In this document: piece after piece, positions 6,342 to 14,992 of the stretch
How the letters are laid out: every line of letters begins with the position of its first letter
How positions within the stretch are numbered: the stretch's first letter is position 1
NCBI RefSeq assembly: GCF_000092185.1
Contig: NC_014160.1
Location: 744,001-808,000, forward strand
Reading direction: 5' to 3'
Origin: Thermosphaera aggregans DSM 11486
GTDB taxonomy: Archaea > Thermoproteota > Thermoprotei_A > Sulfolobales > Desulfurococcaceae
DNA length: 64,000 nucleotides
Made by a program: the position numbers and the translations under genes
Notes under the pieces: model-generated
The model's input: the letters and a program-made list of their open reading frames with translations, nothing else
What the model was told of the DNA's origin: nothing
Database searches by the model: none

Positions 6342-6638
6342 TTTAGACAAACCCCCTAAATACTCGCAAACTCTGATCTATTATCCAGTAATACTCTTTA
6401 AAAACCGAGGCACCGGGCTTTCCACTCTCCAGCTGGATGTATCAGTTTTACTGTAAAATATCATTGTAAATAGGGTTGGCCACGCCCTAGTAACCGGGCG
6501 GGGTTTTCAACCCTCGCACAGTGTTTTACAGGACTTGTGCTTAAATGAGAGGTTAAAATGCTCTCCATGTCCAGCCGGTCTCAGAGGGATATTTATAATA
6601 TTTACTGATATAAATACTCAATTGAAGAGGTGGATTAT
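6342..6638. promoter_or_regulatory. Divergent promoter region between top6B and the cstA operon
   Basis: About 300 bases without a gene. A strong TATA element (ATATTTATAATATTTAC, about 6590-6606) sits 35-45 bases before the GTG start at 6639. A short palindrome TTTTACTGTAAAA lies at about 6446-6458, and a related GTGTTTTACAGG about 80 bases further on, so a regulator site is possible but unproven. The minus-strand promoter of top6B would lie in the AT-rich stretch at about 6355-6400. Confidence 0.5.
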
Positions 6639-6869
6639 GTGAGCCCCAAGGAGGTCTTGGGACTAATAATAACCGTAATCGCGATCGGGATAATATTCTA
6701 CGCCTACATATCAACCGGCGGTGTCGTGAAGGGGGATATAGCGGTAGCGGCCGGCATTGCAGGGTTCGTCCTAATACTTATTGGGCCATACCTATGGCTT
6801 GGGGAGGTTCCTGTAGCTGTTAGGAAGTTCGTTGAGGCTAAGACAGGGGCTAAGCTGGAGCAGAAGTAG
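6639..6869 (+). CDS. Small two-helix membrane protein preceding CstA
   Basis: About 76 residues with two hydrophobic segments, LGLIITVIAIGIIFYAYI and IAVAAGIAGFVLILIGPYLW, and a charged tail (KFVEAKTGAKLEQK) that is probably cytoplasmic. An earlier GTG at 6630 overlaps the AGAGG ribosome site; the GTG at 6639 has that site 8 bases upstream and is preferred. It lies 14 bases before the CstA-family gene in the same direction. I do not recognise a family; the pairing suggests an accessory or regulatory subunit of the carrier, much as small proteins accompany CstA/BtsT in bacteria (analogy only). Confidence 0.7.
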   Translation: MSPKEVLGLIITVIAIGIIFYAYISTGGVVKGDIAVAAGIAGFVLILIGPYLWLGEVPVAVRKFVEAKTGAKLEQK

Positions 6870-6883
6870 GGGGTGTTGGATGA

Positions 6884-8719
6884 ATGTACCCGATCCTCAT
6901 ACTCCTGATCGTTCTATTCATATACGGGATTGCCTACGTCTTCTATGGGAGGAAAATACTTGAGCAACGGGTCACCAAGGCGGATCCCAACAGGCCGACC
7001 CCTGCGCTGACCAAGTTCGACGGTGTCGACTATGTCCCGGCTAACAAGTATGTTCTCTACGGCCACCACTTCGCATCGATCGCTGGGGCTGGACCTATCA
7101 CCGGCCCGGCGTTCGCGCTTAACTGGGGCTGGGGGCTCCCGCTGATATGGGTGTTGTTCGGCAACGTCTTCATTGGGGCTGTACACGACTACTTAGCAAT
7201 AATGTCGAGCATCAGGCACGGTGGCTTATCAGTAATGAGTATTTCGGAGTCAACGATGGGGAAGAAGGCAAGGTATGTCTTCCTAGCCTACACCTGGTTC
7301 GCCCTGATCCTGGTGCTCGCGGCATTCCTCAGCGTTGCCTCGTCAACATTCATAAATGTTCCCTCAGCGGCCACGGTGGCTGTCCTCTACATGCCTCTCG
7401 CCCTGTTGTTCGGGATAATGGTGTACAGGCTGGGGGTTAACGTTAAGGTAGCGACAGCCATAGCTCTCGTCCTCGAGGTCGTGCTGGTATACGCCAGCTA
7501 CTACACCCAGTTAGTCATGCCCGGCGACGCCCCCGTCCCGTATCAAACATGGGTTGTTATGCTGGCTGTTTACAGCTTCATCGCGGCTTCTCTACCAGTG
7601 TGGTTCCTCCTACAGCCTAGGGATTACTTGAACGCATACCTGCTATGGGGCTTCGTAGCCCTCGCTGTCCTAGCACCTCTCGCAATACCTCTCATAGGGT
7701 TAACCGGTCCCTTGATCACCAGCTTCGTAGCCAGCGGAGCCACTATCGGAGCGATCGGCGAGGCCGCGAAGGCTGATATAGCCTGGTTCTGGCCCACTGT
7801 CCCCCTGACGATCGCTTGTGGAGCGCTGTCAGGCTTCCACTCGGTGGTAGGCTCTGGGACAACATCCAAGCAGCTTGCCAACGAGCTCGACGCTCTCCTA
7901 GTAGGGTACGGTGGAATGTTGACGGAGGGGGCTGTGTCATCCCTAGCGGTGATCCTCCCGGCCGCCATAGTCTGGGACTTCTCAGCGTTCGCCTCTAACG
8001 CCGGCCTCTCAACCAGCACGCTTCTAAACGCTGGCTTAAACGTCACGGCAACGCCAACTGTGTTGAAACTCTCCGGGGTGTCGAGATTCTATACTTCCTA
8101 CGGACTGGTTCAAGCATTGATGTGGTCGAGGCTTCTAGGGGTTGAGAGCTTCCCAGCCCTGTACAAGGGCTTCTCAACGTTCGCTGCATGGGCTCTCGCA
8201 GCCTTCGTGCTGACAACGCTTGACACTGCTAACAGGCTGGCAAGGTTTGCATGGGTGGAGATGTTCGACTGGGTTAAGGCCAGGAGCCCCGGTATTCACA
8301 AGGTGATAGCTAACAGGTGGGTTGCCTCCCTGATACCGATACTGATAGGAGCGGTAATGGCCCTGCCACAGGTGACGGATCCGTTGACGGGCAAGCCCAT
8401 ATATGCCTACCAGTTGATATGGCCCGCCTTCTCGGGTACTAACCAGTTGCTCGCGGCAATAGCGTTGCTCACTGAGGCGTTATGGGTTTACGCCGTCTTG
8501 AAGGTCAGGGGTAAGATCAGCCTCCTTATAATGGTTCCAGCAGTGTTCCTATGGGTCACTGTTACGTCAGCCCTCTTCATATGGCTCTTCCTCGTAGTGC
8601 CCACTCTGCCGACACTGTACATTGCTACGACAGGGCTCATAGTGGTGGCATCCCTGGTGCTCGACATCGCTCTAGTACTGTTGTTCGTTAAATCCCTGAG
8701 GCACGCGGCGAGAGCATAG
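6884..8719 (+). CDS. cstA: CstA-family carbon starvation protein, peptide/pyruvate carrier
   Basis: A polytopic membrane protein of 611 residues with about 16 hydrophobic segments. The N-terminal half carries family signatures: RPTPALTKFDGVDYVPANKY, then GHHFASIAGAGPITGPAFA and WGWGLPLIWVLFGNVFIGAVHD. CstA proteins import peptides or pyruvate under carbon limitation in bacteria; the archaeal substrate is not known. In the middle lies GFHSVVGSGTTSKQLANE, also conserved. Operon with the small membrane protein upstream. In a peptide-fermenting crenarchaeote, uptake of peptides would feed amino acid oxidation; this is inference. Confidence 0.9.
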   Translation: MYPILILLIVLFIYGIAYVFYGRKILEQRVTKADPNRPTPALTKFDGVDYVPANKYVLYGHHFASIAGAGPITGPAFALNWGWGLPLIWVLFGNVFIGAVHDYLAIMSSIRHGGLSVMSISESTMGKKARYVFLAYTWFALILVLAAFLSVASSTFINVPSAATVAVLYMPLALLFGIMVYRLGVNVKVATAIALVLEVVLVYASYYTQLVMPGDAPVPYQTWVVMLAVYSFIAASLPVWFLLQPRDYLNAYLLWGFVALAVLAPLAIPLIGLTGPLITSFVASGATIGAIGEAAKADIAWFWPTVPLTIACGALSGFHSVVGSGTTSKQLANELDALLVGYGGMLTEGAVSSLAVILPAAIVWDFSAFASNAGLSTSTLLNAGLNVTATPTVLKLSGVSRFYTSYGLVQALMWSRLLGVESFPALYKGFSTFAAWALAAFVLTTLDTANRLARFAWVEMFDWVKARSPGIHKVIANRWVASLIPILIGAVMALPQVTDPLTGKPIYAYQLIWPAFSGTNQLLAAIALLTEALWVYAVLKVRGKISLLIMVPAVFLWVTVTSALFIWLFLVVPTLPTLYIATTGLIVVASLVLDIALVLLFVKSLRHAARA

Positions 8720-8769
8720 GCTTTTTTAATTAGCTTTTTTCCCACTATAATCCTCATTGGTGCCTGCGA

Positions 8770-9066
8770 ATGGTTTTGAAGAAGATAAGGGGTTTTCTCA
8801 GAGAGGTGGTTCTTTTCATAAAAGGGTTTAACCAGGCAATACTTGAGCAGAGCGTGGAGGCTTTGGAAGCCGAGTATGTTGAGCTGGAGAACGCGTTTCT
8901 CACAATGCTCTTCGGCCCTTTAATAGGGGTTAAAACAATCCCTGCCCTCCTCTCACTCGAGCTACTGGAGGCCGTTAAGGAGGAGGTATCAATACTGGAG
9001 TCCCGCGGTTTCAGGGGGGAGGATGTGTTAGGGGATTTAATGTCATCGATAGGGGGTGAATGGTAG
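8770..9066 (+). CDS. Small helical protein cotranscribed with an ArsA-type ATPase
   Basis: 98 residues, predicted all-helical, without membrane segment or cysteines. A stretch of aliphatic residues in the middle (FLTMLFGPLIGVKTIPALLSL) could be an amphipathic or weakly membrane-associated helix. The stop overlaps the ATG of the next gene (ATGGTAG), so translation is coupled. No family recognised. A TATA-like TTTTTTAATTAGC lies at 8722-8735. Its constant pairing with the ATPase in this window suggests an adaptor or substrate-capture partner; that is a guess from position only. Confidence 0.65.
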   Translation: MVLKKIRGFLREVVLFIKGFNQAILEQSVEALEAEYVELENAFLTMLFGPLIGVKTIPALLSLELLEAVKEEVSILESRGFRGEDVLGDLMSSIGGEW

Positions 9067-10013
9067 TGCTCCAAGACATTGTCAAACCATACTCCTGCTG
9101 CCCACACGTTGTGGTTGTGATAGGGAAGGGGGGTGTGGGCAAGACCACGGTATCCCTGCTCCTCGGCTCGGCTCTCGCGAGGCTGGGGAGGACGCTGGTT
9201 CTAAGCCTCGACCCAGCTAAGCATTTGGCGAAGTATGTTGGGGAGGAGGTTGTAAACAGGGAGCACGAGGTCGAGTACAACCTGGCTGTAAGGCAATTAG
9301 ATATTGAGAAGGAGGTTGCCAGGCAGGCGGACCAGTACTCCGGCATGCTTAAATACCTCCTCCCATCCCTCACAGTCTTGAATGTTGAGAGCGTTGTCGA
9401 CGTTGTCAAGTATATGCCGGGTGTTGAGGAGGAGGTTTTCCTAAGGGTTTTAAGCGATGTCTACGCTAGCCGGGACTACAGCTTCATAGTGGTTGACACG
9501 CCTCCCACAGGGGTGACTCTTAGAACCCTCTACCTCCCAGTGCTCTACATGGTCTGGCTAGACAAGCTGATCAAGGTTAGGGAGAGGATTGTTTCCCTGA
9601 GATACGTTATCGCGAGAACCATGGGGAGGAAGGTTGAGCTGAGGGATAAGGCGTTGTCAATGCTTCTCGAAATGAGGGAGCGCTATTCAAGCCTCATAGG
9701 CTTGTTGAAGAACCCTGAGAGAACCTCCTACGTAGTGGTCGCGACCCCGGAACCCCTTCCTGTTTACGAGATGGAGGAGACGGTTGGCTTCCTGGAGAAG
9801 AAGCTCGGGGCCCCCGTCAAGGCTCTCGTGCTCAACAAGATCCTCCCCGATGAAATAGCTCGGGAAATGGGTGTGGAGCAGCAGCAAAAGGGTTTCATCG
9901 AAAAGCTATCCTCCATTAAAAAACCCGTTATCCTCATAAGCTACCTCGGGAGGCCTACGGAGAGCTTTGAGGATGTTAAGAAGCTTGAAAGCCTTGTGGA
10001 GGTGGTTGGGTGA
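9060..10013 (+). CDS. ArsA/Get3-family ATPase
   Basis: A 317-residue P-loop ATPase of the ArsA/Get3 (SIMIBI) type. The deviant Walker A with signature lysine is GKGGVGKTT at about residues 23-31. The switch I region reads SLDPAKHL in place of the usual STDPAxxL, and switch II reads DTPPTGVTLRTLYLP, close to the DTAPTGHTLR of the family. A long helical segment (residues about 85-200) would form the client groove. Get3 proteins deliver tail-anchored membrane proteins; ArsA drives arsenite efflux. No ArsB, ArsR or ArsD lies nearby, which favours a targeting role. Overlaps both neighbours by a few bases. Confidence 0.85.
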   Translation: MVVLQDIVKPYSCCPHVVVVIGKGGVGKTTVSLLLGSALARLGRTLVLSLDPAKHLAKYVGEEVVNREHEVEYNLAVRQLDIEKEVARQADQYSGMLKYLLPSLTVLNVESVVDVVKYMPGVEEEVFLRVLSDVYASRDYSFIVVDTPPTGVTLRTLYLPVLYMVWLDKLIKVRERIVSLRYVIARTMGRKVELRDKALSMLLEMRERYSSLIGLLKNPERTSYVVVATPEPLPVYEMEETVGFLEKKLGAPVKALVLNKILPDEIAREMGVEQQQKGFIEKLSSIKKPVILISYLGRPTESFEDVKKLESLVEVVG

Positions 10014-10684
10014 GCATTGAAGACCTGTTCCTACTATACGGGATTATAGCTTTCATAGCGATCCTGGGAGCGGCTTCCGCTATATGGTTTTTCAGGCAGA
10101 GGCGGAGGTTCATAGTAATGCTAAGGGATGTTGTCCTGGCTCTTGAAAAGTATTTCAACCCTTCGAGCAAGGAGTACCAGTGGCTCGGATACCTCGTGGG
10201 TTTTAAAGCCAGGTATGTTCTCCCGGGCAGGCACAGGGTTTACCTGTTGCTGACCACGGTTCCCAGGCACTCCCTGTTCTACTATCCCTTCGCCAGGATT
10301 GCTGGGAGGAAGGATAGGCTTGAAATAGCCTTCAACCCGAGCGACAGGGTCGTGGTGGGCGAGGTGTACCTGGTTAAGAAGAACAGCAGGGTTGACAACG
10401 CTATTCTGAGGAACAGCGTGGGGGAGAGGCTTGACAGGCTGTTTTCGAAAGAGGTCAAGGGCTTCTACGATTACATAGTATTCTACAGTGATGAATCGCT
10501 CTACGATAAGGTAGCCGAGGCTGTTGCGAGCGTCAGCCTGCCTGTGACCATGATCGCAACCTACCCGGGGGAGAACATCGTGTCAGTTGCCTACGACCTA
10601 TCCTTGAGCACTCTCGGCGAATTCCTGGCTTTCCAAGACAGGCTTGTCAAGGATTTAACCGTTCCCCGTGTTGGCAGGAAATAG
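10010..10684 (+). CDS. Membrane-anchored protein of unknown function in the ArsA-type operon
   Basis: 224 residues. One N-terminal transmembrane helix (LFLLYGIIAFIAILGAASAI) is followed by a basic stop-transfer RQRRRF, so the remaining 190 residues face the cytoplasm. This domain is alternating hydrophobic and charged, with no motif I know. The GTG start overlaps the TGA of the ATPase gene (GTGA), so the two are translationally coupled. A membrane receptor or docking site for the ATPase is a reasonable hypothesis; nothing in the sequence proves it. Confidence 0.7.
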   Translation: MSIEDLFLLYGIIAFIAILGAASAIWFFRQRRRFIVMLRDVVLALEKYFNPSSKEYQWLGYLVGFKARYVLPGRHRVYLLLTTVPRHSLFYYPFARIAGRKDRLEIAFNPSDRVVVGEVYLVKKNSRVDNAILRNSVGERLDRLFSKEVKGFYDYIVFYSDESLYDKVAEAVASVSLPVTMIATYPGENIVSVAYDLSLSTLGEFLAFQDRLVKDLTVPRVGRK

Positions 10685-11803: not shown

Positions 11804-12220
11804 ATGGTGGTTGACGTGAAGGCCGTGTCCGGGCTGGTTGCGACAGCGCTACTGCTCGCGTTAACGATCGCGGGAGGCGTTCTATTGTACAACTACGTCT
11901 ACGGCTACTTGGCCGGGGGCGGTAGTAGCGGAGGAGTTGAGGTCGTGTACGCCGCACTATACGACCACGGCCCCGTGAAGGAGCTGTACGCCGAGGTCTT
12001 TAACACGGGGTTGAAGACTGTTAGGGTTGAGAAGGTGGTGTTGATTCAAAACGGTAGCACTGTGGTTGAAGCCTCCGTGAACGGGGTCAGTATTCCGGCT
12101 GGAGGTAAGACCGCCATAGTAGTGGGGAACATAACAGCGAGCGTAAACAACACCCTGCCCCTCTACCTGAGAATATACTATGATGGGCAGCCGTCAAAGC
12201 TTTTCGAAGTGTTCAAGTAG
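11804..12220 (+). CDS. Type IV pilin-like protein with class III signal peptide
   Basis: 138 residues. A short charged N-terminus (MVVDVKA) is followed at once by a hydrophobic helix, VSGLVATALLLALTIAGGVL, which is the class III signal architecture cut by the archaeal prepilin peptidase PibD, probably after Lys-Ala. After a Gly/Ser-rich linker comes a beta-rich ectodomain with three or more NxS/T sequons. It starts the operon with the secretion ATPase and TadC-like membrane protein, so it should be the filament subunit or a minor pilin. It is not an archaellin by context: no fla accessory genes are present. Confidence 0.8.
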   Translation: MVVDVKAVSGLVATALLLALTIAGGVLLYNYVYGYLAGGGSSGGVEVVYAALYDHGPVKELYAEVFNTGLKTVRVEKVVLIQNGSTVVEASVNGVSIPAGGKTAIVVGNITASVNNTLPLYLRIYYDGQPSKLFEVFK

Positions 12221-12238
12221 GTTCCCGGTGAAGCAGGC

Positions 12239-13714
12239 TTGAACAGGCTTCAAAGGTTTTTTCAAAACATTAAAACCATTCCTCCAAGCCTCCCCCGCAC
12301 CCTTCCACGGGGCGGGGGCTTCGCCGAGGCCTCCCTACGGGTTGTGAAAAGGATTGTCGAGGAGTATTTAACAGGCTTCTCCATCGACGAGGGGGTTGAA
12401 GGCTTAATCCTGGAGGAGTACGAGCTCCCCTTCAACGTTAAGGCGAGGATTGTGAGGAGCGGTAGCCTGCTGAAGTATGTCGTGGAGGAGCCGCCGGTGA
12501 CGCCGGGGATTGTTGACCAGGTCTCAAGGCTGGTTCTAGGCGTTGAGGCCGATGGGTTTAAAGGGCTGGAGGCCCCGGGGGTTGAAGTGGTTTACAATTA
12601 CTCGAAGATTGTGAGCGGCTACGGCCCCCTTTACCCCTTCACAATGGATGAGGGCGTTGAAGAGGTGAGCCTTGACAGGAAGAATGGGAGGATCCATGTA
12701 ATCCACTCCAAGTACAGCTGGTACGGGTGGCTCCCCTCAAACGTCACGGTGAGGGGCGATCTCGTCGACAGGCTGGTGCTCTCGCTTGCGAGGAGGTCTG
12801 GGAGGCACATCTCCCTTCACAACCCTATAGCGGAGGGGTTGACCAGGGAGGGTTTAAGAGTCAGCCTGACATTCGGCGACGAGGTGTCGAGGAGCGGTAG
12901 TAGCATTGTGATCAGGAGGAGGCCGGGCACGCCTGTAGCCATCACCAGGCTCGTTGCCGAGGGTTTTTTAAACACTGCTGTAGCAGCATACCTCTGGCTG
13001 ATCCTCGAGTCCAGGGGCTGGGTTATTATCGCCGGGAGCGTTGGGGCGGGGAAGACGACACTCCTCCAGGCACTGCTAACCCTTATACCTCCTTCGAGAA
13101 GGGTTGTCACCATAGAGGACACGCCGGAGCTGAACGGCTCCACGGGCCTCTGGGACCCGCTTGTCGAGAGGCATTTAGCCGTTAAGCAGGGGGCCAGCAT
13201 AACCTCTTACGACCTGTTAAGGTTCGCGCTGAGGAGGAGGCCCGACTACATTGTTGTCGGAGAAGTTAGAGGGGTTGAGGCGAGGCTCCTAGTCCAAGCC
13301 TCCCGGCTGGGCCACGGTGTTTTAACAACTATTCACGCCGACAACCCCAGGTCGGTGGTGGAGAGGCTGGCGGCGCCCCCTATTTCAATACCGAGGAGCT
13401 TGCTGAGGAATATTTCAACAATAGTGATGGTTTCGAACAACCAGGGGTTGAGGAGGGTTTCAGCTGTGTGCGAGGTTGGGGAGGGCTCGGAGCTCCTTGA
13501 AATCTGCGGCGGCCCAGGGTCCTGCGCGTCCTTAACGCCAAGTGTTTTAGCATCCCTTTCAGAGAGGCTTCAGGGATTGGGCGATAGGGAGAGGGTTTTA
13601 AGCATGCTCGAGAAGAAGGCCTCCTTCCTGGACGACTGCGTCTCCAATCAAGTCTTCCACTACTCCAAGCTCTCTGAGAGGCTTCTAGAATACTATTTAT
13701 CGGGGAGTGGTTGA
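12239..13714 (+). CDS. Type II/IV secretion system ATPase (GspE/PilB-like)
   Basis: 491 residues. The N-terminal part (about 1-220) is the substrate- or platform-binding region; the RecA-like ATPase has Walker A GSVGAGKTT (about 263-271), an Asp box TIEDTPEL, Walker B YIVVGEVRGVEA and the His box TTIHADNP. It powers assembly of the type IV pilus-like filament encoded by the gene before, with the membrane protein encoded after it. TTG start with GGTGA upstream; the previous gene ends 18 bases before. No separate retraction ATPase is seen nearby. Confidence 0.92.
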   Translation: MNRLQRFFQNIKTIPPSLPRTLPRGGGFAEASLRVVKRIVEEYLTGFSIDEGVEGLILEEYELPFNVKARIVRSGSLLKYVVEEPPVTPGIVDQVSRLVLGVEADGFKGLEAPGVEVVYNYSKIVSGYGPLYPFTMDEGVEEVSLDRKNGRIHVIHSKYSWYGWLPSNVTVRGDLVDRLVLSLARRSGRHISLHNPIAEGLTREGLRVSLTFGDEVSRSGSSIVIRRRPGTPVAITRLVAEGFLNTAVAAYLWLILESRGWVIIAGSVGAGKTTLLQALLTLIPPSRRVVTIEDTPELNGSTGLWDPLVERHLAVKQGASITSYDLLRFALRRRPDYIVVGEVRGVEARLLVQASRLGHGVLTTIHADNPRSVVERLAAPPISIPRSLLRNISTIVMVSNNQGLRRVSAVCEVGEGSELLEICGGPGSCASLTPSVLASLSERLQGLGDRERVLSMLEKKASFLDDCVSNQVFHYSKLSERLLEYYLSGSG

Positions 13715-13729
13715 GAGCGGTGAGGCTTC

Positions 13730-14992
13730 TTGGAGAAGGGGTTTGACGGGCTGAGCGCGAAGCGCTTGGAGGAGGGCTTTCTCGACTTCCTGGCAGTCCT
13801 AGCCTCTTTCGAGACGACAGGCCTCAGGGTCATGGATTTGCTGGAGCAGGCGGCCGAGGGGAGGGTACGCGTCCCCGGCGGCTACGAGCCTCTCGCCAGG
13901 CTCTACGTGTTCCTGGAGAGGGCTTCAGGCGATCCTTACACCTCCCTTAAAAGCCTCGCCGAGCTAACCCCATCCCCTGTCGTGTCAAGGTTTCTAAGAG
14001 AGTACGGGGAGGTCCTTGTGTCAACCGGGGTGACCATGGGCCTTGTTGAAAAGTATCTCGACGAGGAGTTGGAGAGGCACTGGGCAAGGGTTTCAAGCCT
14101 TTTCACACGGCTGGACGCTTTCTACGAGGGCTTCCTCATAATAGTACTAACCCTCACGGTTTTCACCCTGCTCCCCGGCACACCCCTCAGCCCAGCCGTA
14201 TCCGCCGCGGCGGTTGCTCTCACAGGGATCGCGGGGTACTTGATCGCTGGAAGGGTTTCAAAGACAATCCTAGCCCCCGCGCCCCAGTACATGGCTGCGG
14301 CGGACCTGGCGGTCGTAGCCTCCGCTCCCCTAGCCCTCGCAGGGGTTCAAGGGCTCGCGCTCCACGCGGGCCTCGCCCTAACCCTCCACCTCCTCTTAAG
14401 GGGCAGGGTGAGGGTTCTCCGAGGGATTGAGGACGAGGCTGTCCTACTGGCTGAGGAGGCTGTTTCAGGCCTCGCCCTGGGAGTACCGGTTGACGCGACC
14501 CTTACCGCGGGCTTCCACTCGTCCAGAAGCCTTGTCTACAGGCTCCTCGGGCTCGCGATGCTGAACGGGTTCAACCCTTCAACCATGGTTGACGCGCTAG
14601 CCCTCCCGCCGCTGGCCGGGAGGCTCATCTCGTTGCTGGCAAGCCCTCTCGAGTACAGCGGCTTCTCCAGGGCGCTCGCCTCCATGGTTTCCAGGTTTTC
14701 CAGACATATTGCTCAATCCAGGAAGTGGTGTGGGGAGAGAGCTAGGCTCTACCTGTTCTACGCGGTTTTCACGGGGTTCATCCTAGCGTTCACGGCTTAC
14801 TTGTTGAAGGGCTTCACCGCTCTACCGGGCCTGCCCCCCGAGGCCGCGGCCCCGCTGGTCTACACCAGCATTGTCGGCACTGTAGCGGTTGCCTCGGCCT
14901 CGGGCGGCGGGTTAATGGTTTCATCGGCTGGGAAAACAGGACTGGCTTTAGCCCTGGGCTGGGCCGTCTACTTGCTCCTGGCTATCCTTTGA
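13730..14992 (+). CDS. Type II secretion/pilus platform membrane protein (TadC/GspF-like)
   Basis: 420 residues. Two halves each with a cytoplasmic helical domain and membrane helices: FLIIVLTLTVFTLLPGTPL, AVSAAAVALTGIAGYLIAG and a third pair near 185-220, then three C-terminal segments (LFYAVFTGFILAFTAYLL, PLVYTSIVGTVAVA and GLALALGWAVYLLLAIL). This is the inner-membrane platform that works with the ATPase and the pilin of the same operon. TTG start behind GTGAGG. Its stop overlaps the convergent rtcB gene by about 11 bases. Confidence 0.85.
   Translation: MEKGFDGLSAKRLEEGFLDFLAVLASFETTGLRVMDLLEQAAEGRVRVPGGYEPLARLYVFLERASGDPYTSLKSLAELTPSPVVSRFLREYGEVLVSTGVTMGLVEKYLDEELERHWARVSSLFTRLDAFYEGFLIIVLTLTVFTLLPGTPLSPAVSAAAVALTGIAGYLIAGRVSKTILAPAPQYMAAADLAVVASAPLALAGVQGLALHAGLALTLHLLLRGRVRVLRGIEDEAVLLAEEAVSGLALGVPVDATLTAGFHSSRSLVYRLLGLAMLNGFNPSTMVDALALPPLAGRLISLLASPLEYSGFSRALASMVSRFSRHIAQSRKWCGERARLYLFYAVFTGFILAFTAYLLKGFTALPGLPPEAAAPLVYTSIVGTVAVASASGGGLMVSSAGKTGLALALGWAVYLLLAIL

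Follow-up and report, generated by a model that had tools for sequence, protein, structure and literature searches.

A CstA transporter operon with a Get3/ArsA-type ATPase in Thermosphaera aggregans DSM 11486

The window analysed in this study is a stretch of 64,000 nucleotides of the Thermosphaera aggregans DSM 11486 genome (contig NC_014160.1, positions 744,001 to 808,000). On its forward strand it carries a gene for a Get3/ArsA-type ATPase, flanked by two small genes (here gene 1 and gene 3) and preceded by a gene for the carbon-starvation permease CstA. The genes and the nucleotide-binding motifs of the ATPase, in window coordinates, are as follows.

6630..6869, + strand: small two-helix membrane protein, 79 aa, directly 5' of CstA; its family occurs in window-type loci
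6884..8719, + strand: CstA carbon-starvation permease, 611 aa (PF02554, E=2.3e-120)
8770..9066, + strand: gene 1, CstX-type, 98 aa (family alignment, n=59; AlphaFold2 pLDDT 86)
9060..10013, + strand: single-domain Get3/ArsA-type ATPase, 317 aa (TIGR00345, PF02374, 3zq6)
9123..9146, + strand: P-loop GKGGVGKT with the signature Lys, ATPase residues 22-29 (alignment, n=63)
9204..9227, + strand: switch I SLDPAKHL, ATPase residues 49-56 (alignment, n=63)
9495..9512, + strand: switch II DTPPTG, ATPase residues 146-151 (alignment, n=63)
10010..10684, + strand: gene 3, CstY-type, 224 aa, GTG start (alignment, n=57; AlphaFold2 pLDDT 95.7)

Gene 1 overlaps the ATPase gene by 7 bases and the ATPase gene overlaps gene 3 by 4 bases, all three on the + strand, and the original prediction had described them as a three-gene unit. 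The reading frames are indeed real, and all three genes are conserved together across relatives far beyond chance, so that the trio can be regarded as a conserved functional set. The unit was incomplete, however, as CstA, which lies 50 bases from gene 1 on the same strand, and the 79-aa open reading frame belong to it as well. Directly after the CstA stop codon, at 8720-8745, there is a T-rich sequence (ctttttt...ctttttt), a possible transcription terminator that would split CstA from the trio. Farther downstream, at 11804-14992, what looks like a type IV pilus or archaellum-type gene set encodes a small secreted-like protein, a membrane protein, and a T2SSE ATPase (PF00437).

An operon of this kind was named CstA-CstX-ArsA-CstY by Castillo and Saier in 2010 (PMC2963123), who proposed that ArsA energises CstA with CstX as the coupler. 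The same paper gives sizes of about 90 aa for CstX (one hydrophobic segment), about 330 for the single-domain ArsA, and about 210 for CstY (one membrane helix), and places proteins of Staphylothermus, Ignicoccus, Thermococcus, and Pyrococcus in ArsA cluster 14. Genes 1 and 3 correspond to CstX and CstY by size and place, and both families recur in the Thermococcus and Staphylothermus loci. All four membership features of the published operon were found in the window, including the same four gene types, similar sizes, and the same clustering, and the locus is best filed as a member of that system. It differs from the published operons in that its ATPase falls into a separate clade (clade A) with a DPAK switch I, and in the extra two-helix protein before CstA, of which the available part of the 2010 description makes no mention. 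The predicted fold of CstY, the fifth small protein before CstA, and the decay of the operon as a whole are new in the present work. Our literature search found no later experimental test of the proposal that the ATPase energises CstA.

The association with CstA is close. In a class-wide survey of 229 genomes, matches were obtained for gene 3 in 88, for the ATPase family in 104, and for CstA in 94. The ATPase was present in 92 of the 94 CstA genomes (Fisher p about 1e-47), normally a few hundred bases away, and both CstA genomes that lack it are only 61-70% complete. Among genomes at least 90% complete, CstA was found in 51 and the ATPase in 54. One of the three ATPase-only genomes, G031, has a truncated CstA beside the operon with intact CstX, ATPase, and CstY genes, and the matches in the two others score 84-87 bits, which is the range of a paralogue clade unlinked to CstA, where the tree indeed places one of them (G185). 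Altogether, of 130 ATPase matches, 96 are no more than 2.5 kb away from CstA, with CstA always on the 5' side of the ATPase. The CstX gene forms a conserved family 5' of the ATPase; CstY follows directly 3' in 50 cases and is divergent in 24, with a gap of 2.6-2.9 kb that contains CstA wherever both coordinates are listed. When named genomes were scanned with gene 3, 54 loci came up. In 46 of them the full set of four is present, in most cases arranged as CstA-CstX-ATPase-CstY, and several of the remaining 8 end at contig edges. CstA is inverted yet still adjacent in a minority of the named loci. The loci include members from Desulfurococcales, Ignisphaera, Pyrodictium, Thermococcus, Archaeoglobus, and Methanoliparum, and also from metagenome-assembled genomes labelled Thermoplasmata, Thermoproteota, and Synergistetes. 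Some Thermoproteota carry two tandem ATPases with two CstX copies and a diverged CstY beside CstA (L185-L189), where PMC2963123 expected none; at several tandem-ATPase loci no CstY was seen near CstA.

The genes are also lost together. In G021, a relative from the same family, fragments of CstA, the ATPase, and CstY lie within 1 kb of one another (L169, 7060-8048), a relic of the whole operon. Two genomes (L124/L172 and L167) have retained CstA and CstY but neither the ATPase nor CstX; they are drafts, but the gene order itself rules out an ATPase at the usual place. It follows from this pair that gene 3 is tied to CstA itself and not merely to the ATPase. Solitary intact CstY genes were found at L168 7317-7985, L171 7196-7777, and L170 2631-3299, and their neighbours (a biotin ligase; thymidylate kinase and STT3; CitG/TldD-type genes) are unrelated to one another.

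As had been predicted, the ATPase is Get3-like. It scores 145.5 bits against TIGR00345 (TRC40/GET3/ArsA), where the cut-off is 135, matches PF02374 at 1.8e-47, and has the archaeal Get3 of M. thermautotrophicus (3zq6, E=8.6e-31) as its closest solved relative. It is the sole full match of its family in its own genome, the runner-up spanning residues 5-51 only (E=7e-4). The P-loop, switch I, and switch II are all present, which agrees with the earlier statement that the nucleotide motifs are intact. In 63 aligned CstA-linked ATPases, G22, K23, G24, G25, G27, K28, T29, S49, D146, and N259 are invariant, and D51, the catalytic Asp of switch I, is nearly so. Since the signature Lys of the P-loop, the Asp residues of switch I and switch II, and Asn259 are conserved, the protein is likely, judging from the alignment, to be a working ATPase that is active as a dimer. 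Switch I (SLDPAKHL) had been called altered, and the residue change is real but typical of the clade: the position after DPA is K in 23 and R in 4 of the 32 members of the window's clade, with the catalytic Asp kept, and H in 20 of 20 members of the Staphylothermus type. On this comparison, the K reads as a clade trait and not as a peculiarity of the T. aggregans genome.

The CXXC motif, which the alignment shows in the methanogen Get3 structures 3zq6 (M. thermautotrophicus) and 3ug6 (M. jannaschii), occurs in none of the 63 aligned CstA-operon ATPases and in 7 of the 8 paralogues unlinked to CstA. The eight unlinked paralogues make up one side of a 100/100 branch in the tree, and most come from genomes that also have a CstA-type ATPase. 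Because the CXXC split matches separate clades, CstA-linked versus unlinked, it points to two putative functional classes of Get3-like ATPase, of which the window holds only the CstA class. Thus, although the window ATPase shares the fold family and the nucleotide motifs with the archaeal Get3 proteins, it lacks their CXXC zinc motif, is fixed in a CstA operon, and stands apart from the CXXC-bearing crenarchaeal clade. Hydropathy of the ATPase helical subdomain gave no useful separation of the groups.

Neither gene 1 nor gene 3 matched a Pfam or NCBIfam family, and a sequence search for solved relatives of CstA, CstX, and CstY returned none. CstX is predicted to form a long N-terminal helix (residues 2-48) followed by short helices, with a hydrophobic peak at residues 43-61 (hydropathy 1.69) that is borderline for a membrane segment, and its fold search gave zero matches. 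CstY has a hydrophobic peak at residues 7-25 (hydropathy 2.4), and its high-confidence prediction consists of an N-terminal membrane helix and a cytosolic α/β domain that ends in a helix (199-215) and a short strand, so the earlier description of gene 3 as a membrane-anchored partner is borne out. Neither family nor fold search matched this protein, with its single membrane helix, to Get1/Get2. In Foldseek, the top CstY matches were chains of two multipass-translocon entries (E 8.2e-7 with TM 0.63, and 3.0e-4), most likely CCDC47, judging by what the entries contain and by how long the chains are; the third was TtfA (E 1.5e-3). CCDC47 and mycobacterial TtfA, a partner of MmpL3, have the same layout of an N-terminal membrane helix and a cytosolic α/β domain, but the C-terminal coiled coil with which CCDC47 reaches the ribosome exit is missing in CstY. 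A relationship between the two by sequence was rejected, as no similarity was detected: PF07946, the CCDC47 family, matched CstY in none of 21 genomes, even with hits up to E=10 allowed, and it was absent among the 25 families listed in a Pfam scan of 57 CstY members. The predicted fold is a first structural lead for a family that has no Pfam model. The 79-aa protein has a sub-threshold Pfam match only. Among the 58 distinct CstA loci for which upstream sequence was available, 17 carry a member of its family directly 5' of CstA; all 17 are of the window type, and the family is absent from the Staphylothermus, Thermococcus, and Archaeoglobus types.

Two operons offer comparisons for the gene arrangement. 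In ArsA/ArsB, an ATPase gene of the same superfamily likewise adjoins a secondary-type permease. However, the window ATPase has a single domain, scores 77.6 against the ArsA equivalog TIGR04291 (cut-off 650), and has no cysteines other than Cys13 and Cys14, which precede the P-loop, so that the metalloid-site cysteines of ArsA are missing. No arsenic genes were found among the neighbours scanned, as the original prediction had stated, and together with size, score, and cysteines this rules out an arsenite pump ATPase. In E. coli, the CstA-family permease gene of btsT-yjiX-yjiA (L113, 1910-5280) precedes genes for a small protein and for a P-loop NTPase that falls into the same broad class, although yjiA is an annotated GTPase, unlike the window ATPase, and YjiX/YbdD is not homologous to CstX; the profile comparison that would make CstX a YbdD/YjiX relative gave a probability of 2.8%. 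The association of CstA-family permeases with an NTPase and a small protein may thus be a recurrent theme.

The original prediction had proposed that the trio provides a minimal GET-like pathway for membrane proteins, tail-anchored proteins in general being the expected clients. A Get3-like ATPase with a membrane-anchored partner would suit such a pathway. However, the ATPase follows CstA and not Sec61-beta, which is the archetypal tail-anchored protein. Sec61-beta is present in 118 of 122 good genomes versus 54 of 122 for the ATPase, and one family (f11) contributes 29 genomes with Sec61-beta, not one of which appears in the ATPase list. Because Sec61-beta is so much commoner than the ATPase, a general tail-anchor pathway is unlikely, and the restriction of CXXC to the separate unlinked clade argues in the same direction. 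The Get3 of Thermococcus kodakarensis (TkGet3), as cited in PMC11170914, reportedly lacks CXXC and yet binds tail-anchored proteins in vitro as an oligomer, and according to the same source some tail-anchor-binding Get3s also lack the motif. TkGet3 is apparently, and very probably, the CstA-operon ATPase, since each of 7 out of 7 Thermococcus genomes has a single Get3/ArsA gene, located in the CstA operon. Its reported binding therefore brings hydrophobic-helix binding within reach of the ATPase family and makes a chaperone role specific to CstA possible, but in view of the distribution we regard the general pathway as very improbable.

The linkage of the ATPase to CstA is dedicated, the two are inherited and lost together, and the ATPase active site is intact. 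We consider it fairly likely that CstX, the ATPase, and CstY form an accessory complex of the CstA transporter that uses ATP to drive or gate transport. In such a complex, the ATPase would act as a dimer held at the membrane by CstX, the coupler, and by CstY, a membrane-anchored docking domain, and ATP binding and hydrolysis would drive or gate transport by CstA in the manner of ArsA and ArsB. If E. coli CstA is taken as a guide, pyruvate or short peptides are the probable substrate. The near-constant presence of the ATPase in CstA genomes, the predominance of four-gene loci, the decay of the whole operon in G021, the invariant active-site residues, and the parallel with btsT-yjiX-yjiA all speak for this explanation, as does the same proposal in PMC2963123. 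Several observations speak against the energising of transport. CstA and BtsT of E. coli are proton-driven pyruvate carriers (PMC7730263), and as the E. coli cstA operon contains no ATPase gene, CstA needs no ATPase. In addition, the tail-anchor binding reported for TkGet3 is at least as compatible with a chaperone as with an energiser, the closest solved fold to CstY is probably a translocon component, and T. aggregans reportedly shows no growth on pyruvate (PMC3035292).

In a possible, though unlikely, alternative, ATP is spent on making CstA and not on transport. The ATPase would shield a hydrophobic stretch in either CstA or CstX, with CstY as a membrane-side chaperone for insertion or assembly of the many-helix permease. 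The kinship to archaeal Get3 among solved structures, the reported activity of TkGet3 as an apparent member of the same family, and the translocon chains (most likely CCDC47) at the top of the CstY fold search are in favour, as is the strict dependence on CstA. On the other hand, the sequence link between CstY and CCDC47 and the coiled coil are both wanting, the third fold match, TtfA, is a transporter accessory protein, and E. coli makes CstA without such factors. It is improbable, in our estimate, that the ATPase is instead a regulatory partner, one that would respond to ATP or a different ligand by opening or closing a CstA driven by protons, comparable to a possible role of YjiA beside BtsT. 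The proton-driven E. coli carriers, the placement of yjiX and the GTPase gene yjiA after btsT, and the two genomes in which CstA and CstY persist although the ATPase is absent agree with this idea, whereas the near-perfect co-presence suggests more than optional control, and archaeal CstX is unrelated to YbdD/YjiX.

An equally improbable but far-reaching version of the biogenesis idea is that CstY is a prokaryotic relative of CCDC47, so that CstX, the ATPase, and CstY would be a private machine that inserts and assembles just one many-helix transporter. Prokaryotes have been stated to lack PAT components (PMC9630114); if this reading is true, GET-like and PAT-like functions would be united in a prokaryotic system that has a sole client.

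Whichever explanation holds for the accessory proteins of CstA, in the hyperthermophiles examined the archaeal 'Get3' gene sits in an operon with a single transporter, and Thermococcus has no other Get3/ArsA gene. The question of an archaeal GET pathway thereby becomes a direct one, namely whether this ATPase powers, gates, or builds CstA. Candidates for a true archaeal Get3 are found in the unlinked CXXC-bearing clade, whose loci include L202 (4568-5554), L203, L204, L205, L206, L208, and L209.
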